A stretch of DNA of 64,000 bases, taken from positions 3,162,001-3,226,000 of the forward strand of contig NZ_CP084472.1 of NCBI RefSeq assembly GCF_020405225.1, given 5' to 3'. The position numbers were made by a program, and so were the translations under genes. The notes beneath the pieces were generated by a model. It did not search any database, was not told the DNA's origin, and saw nothing but the letters and a program-made list of their open reading frames with translations. Origin of the DNA: Natrinema sp. DC36. GTDB lineage: Archaea > Halobacteriota > Halobacteria > Halobacteriales > Natrialbaceae. Of this stretch, positions 44,010 through 50,097 are shown one piece after another; positions within the stretch are counted from its first letter, which is position 1; every line of letters starts with the position of its first letter.

Positions 44010-45188
44010 ATGAGCGAACGCGCTCCGCCCTCCGATGCCAGCTCGAGCGTCACAGCAGGGAGCGACGAGGAACCAACCCCGCTCGAGTCCCTCGCAGCCG
44101 CACGAAATCGCCTCGAGACGGTCGAGGGCCGCATCGCCGACCATGGAGAGGAAACCGTCGAGGAGGTCGCAACGGCCTACCGCGACGCGACGAAACTACT
44201 GGACGACTACGTCGACCGCGCGACCGGGACCGGCAAGGAGAACTTCCAGGCCTACATCGAACTCGAGGGGAAGTTCGACGGGCTCGTCTCGAGTCTCTCC
44301 GACGACCTCGTCGCGTACGAGGCCTTCGAGGACTCCCTCGAAGCGATCGACAAGCGCCGGCTCAGCGAGTCGGATTTCGAGCGCGCTCGCGAGGCCCTCG
44401 AGCCGGCCGCCGAGTACGCCGACCTGCTCGACAAACGCGAGGCCGCCCGCGAGGAGGTCGCGGAGGCGCGCAAGGCAGCCAACAAGCGCTCACGAGCGCT
44501 CGACGACGAAATCACCGAGCGCGAGCGGCTGCTCGAGCTCGCGACCGCCGATCTCGACGCGCCGGTCGATCGGCTCCGGGAGCCGATCGAGCGCTACAAC
44601 GAGGCCGTCCGCGAGGCCGTACAGGAGTACCGACTCGCGGTCAGCGCGCGCGAGGTGTTCGACCTGCTCGAGCGGAGCGCGTGGTATCCGTTCGTGAACT
44701 ACGAGCAGCCGCCCGACGACCTGCTGGAGTACGTCCGCGGGAATCAGGCCGGTGAGTACACCATTCCCGAGTTGCTCGAGTACGCCGACTACTCCCGATC
44801 GAAGCTCTCCCACTACGTCGACAGCGCGGACGAACTCAAGCGCAACGTGGCGACCCAGCAGACGTACCTCGACGGCATCGACGCCGAGCCGCTGACGGTC
44901 GACTGGCCGCCGGAGTCGGCCGGCACGCTGCGTCGACGCGTCCGAGAGTACCGGCCCTTCGTCGCTCGCGTCGCCGACGAAGACGTGGTCGCGAGCCTTC
45001 GCGAGATCCGTCTCCTCACGACCGACACCGACTACGACCGCCTCCAGACCGCGGCGCAGGCCGTCGCCCGGCTCGACCCCGCCGAACGCGAGCGGCTGAC
45101 CGACGGTCGCGTCGCGGACGAACTCGAGGAGCGACGGGCCGAACGAGAGCGGCTTCGGGACGCACTCGAGGTCGACGATGCTCTGTGA
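44010..45188 (+). CDS. Haloarchaeal coiled-coil protein (DUF7118-like)
   Basis: A 392-residue, highly charged and almost wholly helical cytoplasmic protein. Residues ~25-190 are heptad-rich (EERAEARKAANKR-like stretches, AREEVAEARKAANKRSRALD). A mixed domain follows (~205-300: SAWYPFVNYEQPPDDLLEYV, IPELLEYADYSRSKLSHYVD), then another coil. I recall it as DUF7118. The ATG lies one base after the hisI stop, a tightly coupled pair. SMC/Rad50-like hinge or ATPase motifs are absent. Its role is unknown. Confidence 0.75.
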   Translation: MSERAPPSDASSSVTAGSDEEPTPLESLAAARNRLETVEGRIADHGEETVEEVATAYRDATKLLDDYVDRATGTGKENFQAYIELEGKFDGLVSSLSDDLVAYEAFEDSLEAIDKRRLSESDFERAREALEPAAEYADLLDKREAAREEVAEARKAANKRSRALDDEITERERLLELATADLDAPVDRLREPIERYNEAVREAVQEYRLAVSAREVFDLLERSAWYPFVNYEQPPDDLLEYVRGNQAGEYTIPELLEYADYSRSKLSHYVDSADELKRNVATQQTYLDGIDAEPLTVDWPPESAGTLRRRVREYRPFVARVADEDVVASLREIRLLTTDTDYDRLQTAAQAVARLDPAERERLTDGRVADELEERRAERERLRDALEVDDAL

Positions 45189-45272: not shown

Positions 45273-46718
45273 CTACTTTTGCCGATCATTGAACTCCATT
45301 GCCGTCTCGGCGTCAATATCAGGAACGGTAGCACCGATAGCCAGCGGAAATGCGGCGGTTTCGACCCGTAGCGTCGAAAGACGGTGACGACGCTGAAAGA
45401 AAGACTGCGAGATGGTGTGCTGTTGAATGTTCTCGTAGCGAAGAACGTATTCCCGCCGTCGCCAGAATCCGCTGCGGATATAGAGGTGATCCGCCCCGAA
45501 TGTATACGAAATACTGGCCCACCGAACGTGGGCCGCAACCGGGACGAGCGCCACCGGGAGGAGAGACACGGAGAGCGGAATTGCTGTAATCGCCGGAACG
45601 ACGCGACGGCCGAGAACCGACACCGCGACGGCTAGCAAGACGAACAGAAGATACCGAACGAAATACCGCCGGCGTGCGCGTATTGGTGTCTTCTCCCTCC
45701 CGTCAAAGTCGACTGAGACGACCTGACTCGCTATTTCGTCGATATCCTCCCGTCGTGCCAGCGGAACGAGCGTCGTCCTCGAGTTAAACGGCATCATGTC
45801 GCTTCCGCCTGCAGTCTGCACGTCGAGTTCGGCCCAGCCGAGTATTCGAAGAATTGGATTGTCACTACGCCGGACGATCTGCACGTTTGCGATAGGAATC
45901 TCGTCCTCGACTCGACTAATGAGTCCGTGACGTCTATAGAGCGTCCCTCCGTCGCGGAATAACTGGAAGCCATACATTCGGACGGCCGACCGGACGACAC
46001 CGACGGCCCATCCCACACTGACCGCGAGAAGGACCAGTATCCCCCACTGTGACAGTCCGGCTCCGAATGGGAGGGTCGATCGGACGGACGCGACGACGAG
46101 AGCGGTGACCGAAGCCGAAGTCTCGACGGGAAGGAGTGCAACTGAGATGACGGTTCCAACGGCAAGTATCACTACTGCGTAATGGCTCTGTAGCAAGCTG
46201 TATCCGATTACTTGGCGAAATGAGAGGCTGTACAATTGCTTCTCAGCCGAATGGATATTATCTCGTCGGTCGAGGCGGCCCGATTCGAGCGTTTTCCGGA
46301 GTCGGGTTGCCGTAGCCGGAGAGATATATCGGAGTTCGACCTCACTTTCGTCGTTCGCTCCTGCCGTTTCACAATAGAGCCCGGTAACACCAAACAATCG
46401 GCTGGCAGGGGATTCTAAAAGCCGTACACACTCGATTTGATCGAACGGGACCGTCCGGTGACGACGACGAAGCACGCCGGAACTGACAGTGATATCGCCA
46501 GTCTCTTTGACAGTATACGTGAACCGGGACCAGTGGAGTGCTTCCCAAAGTGTGACCACAAGGAAGTACAGTACCAAAAACGGCAAGAGATAGCGGAGAT
46601 TCCGAACTCCGCCCTGATACACGAACATACCGCCAGTAACCACGATTATCGATCCCTTCATATCATCGATGGCACGGCAGACGATAGAAGCGATATGAAG
46701 TCTCGAGTTACCGGCCAT
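45273..46718 (-). CDS. YdbT-like membrane protein with three PH (bPH2/DUF304) domains
   Basis: A 481-residue protein from the ATG at 46718, overlapping the upstream YdbS-like gene by 11 bp; the longer frame overlaps it too far. Three bacterial PH domains are visible: ~70-150 (DITVSSGVLRRRHRTVPFDQ), ~265-340 (GTLYRRHGLISRVEDEIPIA) and ~415-475 (LYIRSGFWRRREYVLRYENI). Each is preceded by paired TM helices (~40-60, ~165-190, ~215-240, ~350-400). In Bacillus the ydbST pair, under sigma-W control, helps resist antimicrobials from related bacilli. That precedent, with the halocin-like gene close by, suggests envelope protection (inference). The gene is less GC-rich than its neighbours. Confidence 0.85.
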   Translation of the reverse strand: MAGNSRLHIASIVCRAIDDMKGSIIVVTGGMFVYQGGVRNLRYLLPFLVLYFLVVTLWEALHWSRFTYTVKETGDITVSSGVLRRRHRTVPFDQIECVRLLESPASRLFGVTGLYCETAGANDESEVELRYISPATATRLRKTLESGRLDRRDNIHSAEKQLYSLSFRQVIGYSLLQSHYAVVILAVGTVISVALLPVETSASVTALVVASVRSTLPFGAGLSQWGILVLLAVSVGWAVGVVRSAVRMYGFQLFRDGGTLYRRHGLISRVEDEIPIANVQIVRRSDNPILRILGWAELDVQTAGGSDMMPFNSRTTLVPLARREDIDEIASQVVSVDFDGREKTPIRARRRYFVRYLLFVLLAVAVSVLGRRVVPAITAIPLSVSLLPVALVPVAAHVRWASISYTFGADHLYIRSGFWRRREYVLRYENIQQHTISQSFFQRRHRLSTLRVETAAFPLAIGATVPDIDAETAMEFNDRQK

Positions 46719-47238
46719 CGTCCGAACCCCCTTGGCAACTGCCTTTGAGTGCACTCGCGTCGCTTGCAGTGAGCCCAGGAACGACCAGACTCGAGTGCGG
46801 TGAGCCGGCAGTGTGAATAACGAGCCGTGAGAGTCCGAACAACCGCTCGAGCGGTCGTGCTTCGACATCAATGTGTTGAATCTGTTTATAGGGCACGAAC
46901 GTCTTTTTCTTCCGGAGAACACCACGTTGGAGGAGCAGTTCCTCGTCTCGAATCGCTACGTCCCACGACCGATATCGAAACCAGCTGTAGATGAGGCCGC
47001 TACCGGAGAAGAGTACGATGGCGGTAGTTCCGGTCGTCGAAACGGGATCGAAACCCGACCACAGAACGTACAGTGCTCCCCAAGCAGCGATAGCGAGTAA
47101 AAGCACATAAATCGTCCAGACGTAGAGTATTCGTCGGTTCAACCGGATCATAGTCTGTTTGGAACTGATGGCACGAGCACGATGTCGTCGAGTTTCCTCG
47201 TCCCTGATCGTCGTTCTATACGTAATTTCCTTTCCCAT
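46708..47238 (-). CDS. YdbS-like membrane protein with one PH domain
   Basis: A 176-residue protein with two adjacent TM helices (~38-60 and ~68-88) followed by one bPH2 domain (~90-165: VAIRDEELLLQRGVLRKKKT, FVPYKQIQHIDVEARPLERL, FGLSRLVIHTAGSPHSSLVV). This is the classical YdbS layout, and it pairs with the YdbT-like gene whose start overlaps its end. It diverges from the small membrane protein at 47277 across a 38 bp promoter, so both may be switched together. Confidence 0.87.
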   Translation of the reverse strand: MGKEITYRTTIRDEETRRHRARAISSKQTMIRLNRRILYVWTIYVLLLAIAAWGALYVLWSGFDPVSTTGTTAIVLFSGSGLIYSWFRYRSWDVAIRDEELLLQRGVLRKKKTFVPYKQIQHIDVEARPLERLFGLSRLVIHTAGSPHSSLVVPGLTASDASALKGSCQGGSDDGR

Positions 47239-47276
47239 GTTTTATTATCTGAGGCGAAGGAATATATCTTGTGGTT
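47239..47276. promoter_or_regulatory. 38-bp divergent promoter between the ydbS-like gene and a small membrane gene
   Basis: Only 38 bp separate the two start codons. TTTATTAT (about 47241-47248) lies ~29 bp before the plus-strand ATG, and on the minus strand GATATATTCC lies ~27 bp before the ydbS-like ATG. The two promoters therefore overlap each other's start sites, giving leaderless messages that a single regulator could control. Confidence 0.5.
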
Positions 47277-47618
47277 ATGGTTGATACGGAAGACAGAATG
47301 TGGAAGACGGCCCTGAAAGTTGGATTCGGAACCGGTATACTGATACTTGTCGTTCTGTCATTGGTTGCTGGTTCTGAAGCGGCGGAAACCTCGCTTCAGG
47401 GCGTCATCCAGATCGCAATAATGGCATACGGAGCGAACGAAGGGCTCCGATACAGGGATCAAACGGCTCCCGCGATAGCGTCCGTCCTCTTAGTGATCGG
47501 CGGTGCGTATGGTTGTTATCTGGCTTGGAGAGGCAACGAGATGTTCACGAATTTCCTATATCTCGGACTCGTTGGGAGTGGATTACTGGGAGTCCAAGTT
47601 CGGGACGTTCAAAAATGA
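47277..47618 (+). CDS. Small multi-TM protein, candidate immunity protein
   Basis: A 113-residue protein (MVDTEDRMWKTALKVGFGTG) with three or four hydrophobic helices (~10-32, ~40-58, ~63-82, ~88-105). It has no match I recognise. It lies between the PH-domain pair, which it diverges from, and the halocin C8-like precursor, with which it converges (28 bp apart). Small membrane proteins in this position often protect a producer cell from its own peptide, but this is inferred from place and topology only. Confidence 0.6.
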   Translation: MVDTEDRMWKTALKVGFGTGILILVVLSLVAGSEAAETSLQGVIQIAIMAYGANEGLRYRDQTAPAIASVLLVIGGAYGCYLAWRGNEMFTNFLYLGLVGSGLLGVQVRDVQK

Positions 47619-47646
47619 ACCAGTCGGGGGGCGTCTCCGGTTCGCC

Positions 47647-48513
47647 TCAACAGAGACCCATTCCGGCACAGATCGTGCCGGCACCGACAGCACATCCGTA
47701 ATTATTGATCGCGTCGACGATCACGAAGCAGGCCGCACCGCAAGCACCGTACCCCCAAACGCTTCCGAGGAAGGGAGCGCACGCTTGGAGACATGCATAG
47801 CGGGAAACCGAGCCGGTAGCGCCTTCACAGAGAGTCCCGACGATCGCCGTACATCCGCCACAGCCGAGCGCGTCTTGCCAATCCTGTGCGGATACACCCC
47901 CGTTAATATCCGTTGAGGTGGTGCTGGCCGGCTTCTGAATGGGTTCTTGCTGTATAACCGACGCGGATCCCTGTTGATCGGCGGTGAACGTCTTCTGTTC
48001 GAGTCTGCCCGTCGAGTTCGAAGCCACAGAGACTCCCTGGCCTGTAGTCAGCGGTTCGACCGTCCGTCCAAACGCCATCATCGGCTCTCTCGTACTCGTT
48101 TCCGCGTCCGGAGTCGTATCGACGACGATAGAGAATAGTATTCCGGCGGACCCCTGTTGGGGGCGGTTGGACTGGTACCCGCTGAAGATGATCACTGGGT
48201 CTGTCTTGTTTATTTCCGGATCGTCCGTCTCGAACGCGATCCCAAACTGGCCGGCAGCCTCAACGTTCGACTCCGTTCGCATCGCGTTATCGATGTTCTT
48301 GGCTGCTGACGAGTCCAGTACGTAACTGAGTTCTTTTCGCGCCTCGGATTCCGAAATCTCAGTTCTGCTCACGATCTCGAAATCGGGTGTGTCGTCCTCT
48401 GCAGCGACGGTGTTCGACATGGAACCGAGCGTTACGGAAGCCGCACTTGCCGCGGCAGCGTTCCTGAGCAATCGACGCCGGCTGAACCTGTTATTGTTCG
48501 GATCTTCAGTCAT
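47647..48513 (-). CDS. Halocin C8-like precursor (Tat-exported peptide antibiotic)
   Basis: A 288-residue precursor from the ATG at 48513 (an upstream in-frame GTG at 48534 would give 295). The twin-arginine signal (FSRRRLLRNAAAASAASVTL) ends near TVAA-EDD. The middle (~35-195) is polar and could correspond to the HalI immunity part of ProC8. The last ~72 residues are Gly/Ala/Cys-rich with ten cysteines, opening LGCGGCTAIVGTLC and ending ICAGMGLC. Halocin C8 (from memory) likewise opens GCSAC and ends AGLC with ten cysteines, and comes from a ~283-residue Tat precursor. Processing, disulfides and activity are inferred. The AT-rich upstream region and weaker GC content hint at transfer. Confidence 0.88.
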   Translation of the reverse strand: MTEDPNNNRFSRRRLLRNAAAASAASVTLGSMSNTVAAEDDTPDFEIVSRTEISESEARKELSYVLDSSAAKNIDNAMRTESNVEAAGQFGIAFETDDPEINKTDPVIIFSGYQSNRPQQGSAGILFSIVVDTTPDAETSTREPMMAFGRTVEPLTTGQGVSVASNSTGRLEQKTFTADQQGSASVIQQEPIQKPASTTSTDINGGVSAQDWQDALGCGGCTAIVGTLCEGATGSVSRYACLQACAPFLGSVWGYGACGAACFVIVDAINNYGCAVGAGTICAGMGLC

Positions 48514-48565
48514 TGTCTGCAGATAGTCATTCACTTTATCAATTATTGAATTATTCCTATTTTCT

Positions 48566-48580
48566 CAAAATATAATACTG
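48566..48580 (-). promoter_or_regulatory. AT-rich promoter of the halocin-like gene
   Basis: On the minus strand CAGTATTATATTTTG is a strong TATA-type sequence within a ~70 bp stretch (48535-48605) that is mostly A/T, unlike the rest of the window. It would start transcription near 48540-48546, either just before the in-frame GTG (48534) or ~30 bases before the preferred ATG (48513). Confidence 0.45.
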
Positions 48581-48720
48581 AGGAGAATATTTTTATTACG
48601 TGGTCTCGATTATCGAACCTTGATTGATGTGGGAGAAGCGGCAACGGCTGACAGATTACCGCAGCGACGCCGATAAAATAGTACGGCTTCGAGGGATGGC
48701 GAGTGATCGGCAGAATCAAG

Positions 48721-50097
48721 TTACGCGTCGGCCTTCGCGTCGGCCAGCGCCTCGTACATGTCGTCGACGAGTTCCTCGGCGCGGTCACTGTCGCGGGCTT
48801 CGGCGTAGATCCGGACGAGCGGTTCGGTCCCGGAGGGGCGGGCGAGCACCCATGCGTCGCCGTGATCCAGCCGGTAGCCGTCGCGGGTGTTGAGCGCCGC
48901 ATCGGACGCCTGAGCGTGGTTAGCCGCCGCGTCGAGCATCGCGTCGCGCTCGGCCGTCGACTCGTACTCGACGTTCCGACGCACGTTTACGTAGCCGTCG
49001 TAGGGGGCGACGATCTCGCTGACCGGGCGCTCGGCGACTAACTCGAGGAAGCGCGCTGCAGTGAACGCCCCGTCCCGAGAGAGCCGGTATTCGGGGAAGA
49101 AGATCCCGCCGTTACCCTCGCCGGCGATCGGCACCCGCTCGCCGTTGGCCTCGAGTTCCTCGATGCGAGTGATGATGTTGGTCGAGCCGATGGGGGTCAA
49201 CTCGAGTTCGGCCCCGACCTCGGTGACCACGTCGACGAGTCGCTGGGAGACGTTGACCGCGGAGACGGTGGTGTCGCCGACCTCGAGTTCGGCGGCGGCA
49301 AGCGCGGCGAGCGTGGCGTCACCCTCGACGTAGTCGCCGTTCTCGTCGAAGAAGATCGCGCGGTCGGCGTCGCCGTCGTGGGCGATGCCGACGTCGGCGT
49401 CGGTCGCCCGGACGAGGCGGCCGAGGTCCGCGAGGTTGTCCGGAACCGGTTCGGGGTCGCGACCCGGGAAGTGACCGTCGGGCTGGGCGTTGACGGTGAC
49501 CACGCGACAGCCCAGTTCCCGGAAGAACTCGGGGCTGGTGAGCGCGCCCGCGCCGTGGCCCGGATCGAGCGCGACGGTGAGATCGGCGTCGGCGATCGAC
49601 TCCCGATCGGACGCCGCGAGCAATCCGTCGACGTACTCCCGGCACACGCCGTCGATCTCGCGGACGCGTCCCGTCTCGTCCCAGGAGGCGACAGTAAACG
49701 ACTCCGCGAGAAGCGTCTCCTCGATCGTCTCGAGGGCCGAGATCGAGAGTTCGACGCCGTCGCTCCCGACGAGTTTGACGCCGTTGTACGGCGGCGGGTT
49801 GTGCGAGGCCGTGATTACCATGACCGGTATCCCTTCGCGTTCGGCGTAGGCCTGTGCCCCCGGCGTGGGGACGATCCCGAGGCGGTCGACATCGGTCCCC
49901 GTACTCGCCAGTCCGCTGGCGGCCGCGTCGGCCAGCATCCGCCCCGTGTGACGGGTGTCGCGAGCGATGGCAACCCGGTCCCCACCGCGACCGCCGCCCC
50001 AGGTCGTCCCCGCCGCTTTCGCGACGCGCAGGACGAACGCGGGCGTCAACTCCTCGTTGGCGACGCCCCGCGTCCCACTCGATCCGAAGACTTGCAT
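48721..50097 (-). CDS. glmM: Phosphoglucosamine/phosphomannomutase family protein
   Basis: A 458-residue alpha-D-phosphohexomutase. All four family motifs are present: the phosphoserine loop VMVITASHNPPPYNGVKLVG, the metal loop IAHDGDADRAIFFDENG, the sugar-binding loop IAGEGNGGIFFPE and the phosphate loop LARPSGTEPLVRIYAEA. The start MQVFGSSGTRGVANEE with FGSSGTRG favours the archaeal phosphoglucosamine mutase branch, but glucose or mannose specificity cannot be excluded. The ATG at 50097 is preferred over the adjacent one at 50100. Confidence 0.9.
   Translation of the reverse strand: MQVFGSSGTRGVANEELTPAFVLRVAKAAGTTWGGGRGGDRVAIARDTRHTGRMLADAAASGLASTGTDVDRLGIVPTPGAQAYAEREGIPVMVITASHNPPPYNGVKLVGSDGVELSISALETIEETLLAESFTVASWDETGRVREIDGVCREYVDGLLAASDRESIADADLTVALDPGHGAGALTSPEFFRELGCRVVTVNAQPDGHFPGRDPEPVPDNLADLGRLVRATDADVGIAHDGDADRAIFFDENGDYVEGDATLAALAAAELEVGDTTVSAVNVSQRLVDVVTEVGAELELTPIGSTNIITRIEELEANGERVPIAGEGNGGIFFPEYRLSRDGAFTAARFLELVAERPVSEIVAPYDGYVNVRRNVEYESTAERDAMLDAAANHAQASDAALNTRDGYRLDHGDAWVLARPSGTEPLVRIYAEARDSDRAEELVDDMYEALADAKADA

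Follow-up and report, generated by a model that had tools for sequence, protein, structure and literature searches.

A halocin C8-family precursor gene beside a YdbS/YdbT-type PH-domain pair in Natrinema sp. DC36: a putative bacteriocin cassette with a proposed self-protection module

In a stretch of 64,000 nucleotides from the genome of the haloarchaeon Natrinema sp. DC36 (contig NZ_CP084472.1, positions 3,162,001 to 3,226,000; the window in the following), we describe a group of four adjacent genes, which encode a putative precursor of the halocin C8 family, a small membrane protein and two PH-domain proteins resembling YdbS and YdbT, here termed PHa and PHb. Among archaeal peptide antibiotics, halocin C8 (HalC8) has been studied best, and its self-protection is credited to its own pro-region, HalI. 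We consider it fairly probable that the locus constitutes a halocin C8-family bacteriocin cassette, which is equipped with a dedicated self-protection module of the YdbS/YdbT type. An earlier sequence-only reading of the window had placed four genes at this locus and had viewed the PH pair and/or the small protein as a protective arm next to a new halocin. All four genes are present, and the genomic half of that view has held, both in the assignment of the precursor to the C8 family and in the enrichment of PH genes beside C8-like genes, while the small gene turned out to be tied to a single site.

The precursor and its PH-domain neighbours

The precursor is encoded on the reverse strand (47647-48513). 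Its open reading frame extends to 48534 and would yield 295 residues from a GTG, whereas an alignment with relatives favours an ATG at 48513, resulting in a protein of 288 amino acids. The N-terminus contains a Tat-type signal MTEDPNNNRFSRRRLLRNAAAASAASVTLGSMSNTVAA (48400-48513), assigned from the twin-arginine motif only and with an approximate end, whose motif SRRRLL includes the residues R19-R20 that are invariant in an alignment of 12 window-type relatives. It is followed by a region in the position of HalI (47887-48399), delineated by a profile match to ProC8-type precursors, and by a C-terminal domain (47650-47886), the probable mature halocin. The last 79 residues contain ten cysteines at positions 9, 12, 20, 32, 36, 49, 53, 65, 73 and 79 and terminate with GLC, so that the Tat-signalled precursor with a ten-cysteine C-terminus described in the sequence-only reading is confirmed. 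The halocin C8 domain profile TIGR04449 (halocin_C8_dom) matches residues 225-295 with 31.9 bits at a cutoff of 24, and with 35.2 bits in the genome search, in line with the C8-like character that had been proposed; the ten-cysteine set is incomplete in some members of the family. A BLASTP comparison of the window precursor with the HalC8 precursor did not reveal any useful similarity. The kinship becomes visible by profiles only since the pairwise distance is too great for BLASTP, and the suggested comparison with ProC8, carried out as a profile-profile alignment of window-type and HalC8-type precursors, matches over 263 columns including the pro-region (probability 98.6%, E 1e-15). Judged by these profile matches, the precursor is a member of the halocin C8 family.

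With HalC8/ProC8 of Halobacterium sp. AS7092 and Natrinema, the precursor shares a Tat-type organization of about 285 amino acids with a pro-region and a ten-cysteine C-terminal domain, whereas the loop and cysteine spacing differ. The precursor of locus L038 in another genome of the same genus (G004), which we take to be the HalC8 sequence, has no comparable neighbours, unlike that of the window with its adjoining YdbS/YdbT pair and small membrane gene. In the sister genome G398, an ortholog at the same site is 66% identical, with the C-terminal part showing 88% identity and an omega of 0.057, compared to 58% and an omega of 0.28 in the fast evolving remainder, and we thus conclude that selection guards the mature peptide. 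By analogy to ProC8, the pro-region might confer immunity. The predicted structure of the C-terminal domain contains four helices (pLDDT 79-80). Its best matches in a search of the PDB are NK-lysin and saposins with TM-scores of 0.42-0.57, none of them significant, and a search by sequence for solved structures of the C8 domain did not yield any. A related-locus search of GTDB r220 with the window precursor did not return relatives. The genome of strain DC36 itself encodes two more C8-like precursors, L092 (7998-8831(-), C2:47372-47602) and L093 (7989-9011(-), C1:165983-166993), of which one falls just below the TIGR04449 cutoff and the other is detected only in protein or window-type profile searches; neither adjoins a PH gene.

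Both PH genes are located on the reverse strand. PHa (46708-47238, 176 amino acids) contains one bPH_2 domain (PF03703, 61.7 bits) and PHb (45273-46718, 481 amino acids) three bPH_2 stretches (PF03703, 140.4 bits), and the adjacent pair is, by its domain content, of the YdbS/YdbT architecture. A simple hydropathy analysis, set against the two and six membrane spans expected of a YdbS/YdbT pair, predicts one strong span in PHa, with two visible, and six spans in PHb. The overlap between the two genes noted in the sequence-only reading is real and amounts to 11 nucleotides (and to four in the relatives L081 and L087), with PHb likely starting from an ATG at 46718, whereas the previously listed frame of 550 amino acids with a 218-nucleotide overlap is an artefact of choosing the first possible start, an early GTG. 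The gene of the small hydrophobic protein (47277-47618, forward strand, 113 amino acids) is positioned between precursor and PH pair. Its product does not match any Pfam or NCBIfam family, and homologs with 54% and 52% identity occupy the corresponding position in two sister genomes. The PH pair and the small gene are transcribed apart, diverging over an AT-rich intergenic stretch of 38 bp (47239-47276), which is a candidate for a shared promoter.

Recurrence of PH genes beside C8-like genes

The association between halocin and PH genes is non-random and repeated. Using TIGR04449, we found C8-like genes in 42-43 of 391 genomes sampled across the class; within the family of the window, 24 of 125 genomes contain them. 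A first neighbourhood survey of 59 C8 sites revealed, besides the window, four sites where a YdbT-like gene directly adjoins a C8-like gene. These include L081 with precursor, PHa and PHb on one strand, L087 with a divergent PH pair, and L048 and L056, which both contain PHb only in convergent orientation. In held-out genomes, a PH gene was found at three of five C8 sites, namely at L125, which contains the complete window cassette including the small gene beside the same DUF7118 gene, at L126, with a divergent PH pair, and at L124, where PHb is decayed into fragments. In a reverse search, an extra PHb copy in genome G192 led to a C8-like precursor that was overlooked by TIGR04449 (L136), thus providing a ninth case. 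In all nine loci (the window, L048, L056, L081, L087, L124, L125, L126 and L136) the PH gene is the direct neighbour of the precursor, with the small gene standing between the two in the window, and 0.1-0.9 kb separate the C8 domain from the nearest PH gene. These arrangements occupy many distinct sites and show several orientations.

The enrichment test that the sequence-only reading had called for covered 24 genomes of the family and took 37 C8 sites and 52 PHb copies at their real positions. PHb is found within 2 kb at 8 of the 37 sites compared to 0.115 expected for uniform placement (P ~3e-13), a null model that ignores the clustering of accessory genes and is applied to cases that are partly non-independent. 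When the window and its ortholog are left out and two near-identical loci are counted once, 5 of 34 sites remain (P ~6e-8). Together with the successful held-out and reverse searches, the test supports the proposed enrichment.

YdbT-like genes are present in 389 of the 391 class-wide genomes, away from halocins, and the halocin-linked copies are extra to these housekeeping copies. In a tree of YdbT proteins, the copies of the window, L081, L087, L125, L126 and L136 and an orphan copy (L200) fall into a divergent accessory clade with support of 100/100. This clade also contains six stand-alone PH pairs without halocin, and its inner order is unsure due to long branches. The PHb copies of L048 and L056 are placed within the housekeeping clade, which implies that the partnership between halocins and PH genes arose at least twice and indicates, on the basis of the tree, that halocins acquired PH partners from two or more YdbT lineages. 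PH pairs that are kept without a halocin, which the sequence-only reading had named as evidence against its proposal, are found in part, as housekeeping copies and as a single Natrinema trio lacking the precursor. The housekeeping pairs are explained by the halocin-linked copies being extra to them and mostly belonging to a separate clade. The small gene shows a different distribution. It is rare in the class and linked to a PH pair only at the site of the window, and we therefore assign it to this cassette instead of to PH-linked halocins generally.

A related arrangement can be found on pHTUR02 of Haloterrigena turkmenica DSM 5511 (HTUR_RS26060, HTUR_RS22475), where a PH pair comes directly after the gene of an annotated halocin C8-like protein and is read in the same direction. 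Unlike in the window, the precursor is a different one (23% identity, tblastn) and there is no gene of the 47277 type. The genes of this locus are annotated singly and the link between halocin and PH proteins is absent from the annotation. A literature search, whose coverage mostly excluded subscription papers, did not identify a paper that joins halocins with PH-domain or YdbT proteins. While the parts are of known kinds, their combination looks new.

Some further observations concern these loci. Genome G398 holds two different halocin-PH cassettes, the window-like L125 and the divergent L126. L087 and L124, which contain different C8-PH cassettes in two genomes, are both located amid genes of a V-type ATPase subunit and an acyl-CoA ligase, a neighbourhood that is possibly an insertion hotspot. 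A precursor closely related to that of L087 resides at a contig edge (L226 131-988, G351 C47), beyond which an upstream PH pair could lie. In genome G197, three PH pairs are arranged in tandem (L140, 5531-11953).

The insertion site in related genomes

The cassette is flanked by a DUF7118 gene (44010-45188, forward strand) and a gene of the phosphoglucomutase type (48721-50097, reverse strand). As noted in the sequence-only reading, it is less GC-rich than its surroundings, with a G+C content of 0.555 for the four genes compared to 0.684 and 0.697 for the flanking genes, and it decreases to 0.411 in the AT-rich stretch 5' of the precursor (48514-48720), which may act as promoter. The four genes together are an AT-rich insert. 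Transposase genes are absent from the locus, and a search for flanking repeats marking a mobile unit returned short chance-like matches, none of them convincing. None of the four proteins matches anti-phage defence models in PADLOC.

In other genomes of the genus, the gap between the DUF7118 and phosphoglucomutase genes mostly measures 0.1-2.6 kb, reaching 4.3 and 6.0 kb in two cases, and the stretches examined in these gaps yielded no cassette genes. In G400, the nearest relative by that flank, the gap of 987 bp contains a universal-stress-type gene. The whole four-gene cassette is present at the same site in the sister genome G398. A partial version is found in Natrinema gelatinilyticum BND6 (G397; L200 11285-13698), which contains the small gene, PHa and PHb at this site in the same order but lacks the precursor, with 58 bp remaining in its place. 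The three genes are intact and, in comparison to G398, show signs of constraint in PHa (92% identity, omega 0.08), PHb (86%, omega 0.16) and the small gene (omega 0.24). The retention of this trio in the absence of the toxin gene is as expected of an immunity or resistance arm that persists as an orphan module. In G296, which belongs to another genus, the site contains the small gene and a 52-residue relic of PHb, which is doubtful by tblastn yet a clear match by profile alignment.

Self-protection and its alternatives

Proteins of the YdbS/YdbT type are common, although not universal, in the clusters of leaderless bacteriocins, as exemplified by DdE/DdF of enterocin DD14, LnqC/D of lacticin Q, Orf7/8 of aureocin A53 and Geo6B/C of geobacillin 6 (PMC8657885, PMC10311245). 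With 176 and 481 residues, PHa and PHb resemble DdE and DdF (141 and 458 residues), which contain the same one and three bPH_2 domains. In contrast to leaderless bacteriocins, the precursor in the window is archaeal and starts with a Tat signal, to which a pro-region of about 170 residues is added, and its cassette lacks the ABC transporter that usually accompanies leaderless clusters. The pair architecture is also shared by ydbST of Bacillus subtilis, part of the sigma-W regulon, which is listed as protecting this organism against amylocyclicin (PMC8144471) but, unlike the window pair, forms a chromosomal stress operon unlinked to a bacteriocin gene. A saposin-like fold is common to many leaderless and circular bacteriocins (PMC6072434).

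Based on these bacterial parallels, we propose that the PH pair may protect the envelope of the producer. Export of the precursor would proceed through Tat, and cleavage outside the cell would then release a helical peptide, rich in disulfides and roughly 75-80 residues long, that would attack the membranes of related haloarchaea. In the membrane of the producer, the PH pair and the small protein would bind this peptide and either expel or neutralise it, and such PH-based protection could add to or replace the HalI-type protection by the pro-region. The antimicrobial activity, the cleavage and the protective role are inferred.

Several observations weigh against a dedicated protection module. 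Most C8-like genes, even those of the close relatives L072, L086 and L089, have no adjoining PH gene. For C8-like genes detected by any profile, a PH neighbour is present at 9 of 45 sites within the family and at 0 of 27 elsewhere, and the association is thus seen in one family only. PH pairs of the accessory clade occur without halocin at L129-L135, and these are the nearest to the L087 and L126 copies in the tree; a hidden halocin beside these extra pairs was looked for and none was found. Finally, the best bacterial genetics points to export, since deletion of either ddE or ddF abolishes the export of enterocin DD14 and leaves the peptide trapped in the cell, to the detriment of the latter (PMC8657885). 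By this parallel, and in light of the similar sizes and equal domain counts of the proteins, the PH pair could be needed for peptide export or maturation across the envelope, while a HalI-like pro-region protects the cell. We regard this, the main alternative, as rather unlikely. The enterocin is leaderless, whereas the Tat signal of the precursor would provide its own export route, and most C8-like genes manage without a PH pair. We thus favour self-protection over export because a precursor with a Tat signal should not depend on help with its export and because the persistence of the orphan trio in a genome devoid of the precursor fits resistance better than export.

To an even lesser degree, we expect the PH pair to be a general envelope-stress module akin to ydbST, which shares variable islands with halocins without acting on the peptide. 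Such a module would account for the presence of housekeeping pairs in nearly every genome, for the stand-alone accessory pairs and for the location of PH and halocin genes in low-GC variable sites, although mere co-residence in islands would be expected to result in looser spacing than the observed 0.1-0.9 kb and the full cassette is kept in a sister genome. A chance adjacency of unrelated low-GC genes, about which the sequence-only reading had itself cautioned and to which the restriction to one family might point, is hardly credible and is refuted at the level of co-occurrence by the eight observed cases compared to 0.12 expected, by those remaining after exclusions and by the held-out and reverse searches.

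Beyond the proposed self-protection of the producer, we only tentatively suggest that YdbS/YdbT pairs could serve in both domains of life to counter antimicrobial peptides of the saposin-like kind, where the long enigmatic bPH_2 membrane proteins of either domain would share the clearance of such peptides from the membrane and would have been recruited beside disulfide-rich C8-type halocins as they are beside leaderless bacteriocins. A second, membrane-based arm recurring next to C8-like genes would equip archaea with the sort of protection or export module known from leaderless bacteriocin producers, and bPH_2 proteins of the YdbS/YdbT type, which are present in nearly every haloarchaeon, would be assigned a testable function. 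Extra PH copies could serve as genomic marker for new halocins, as with the overlooked gene in G192.

C8-like genes are also found next to other membrane proteins. Proteins of about 120 residues are encoded beside C8 genes at L036, L037, L043, L059 and L078, and a comparison did not reveal any relation to the small protein of the window. Others of about 68 residues are encoded at L056, L057, L061, L063 and L079, and the window-type loci devoid of PH genes (L065, L072, L086, L089 and L093) each contain another small multi-span gene nearby. C8-like genes may draw on several membrane partners that can replace one another, the PH pair among them. Within a group of loci that includes L036-L043, L049, L055, L059, L060, L088 and others, 16 loci have a winged-helix regulator of the HVO_A0261_N/FilR1 type near the C8-like precursor, and 12 have a membrane protein resembling an ABC-2-type permease, with a length of about 530 residues.

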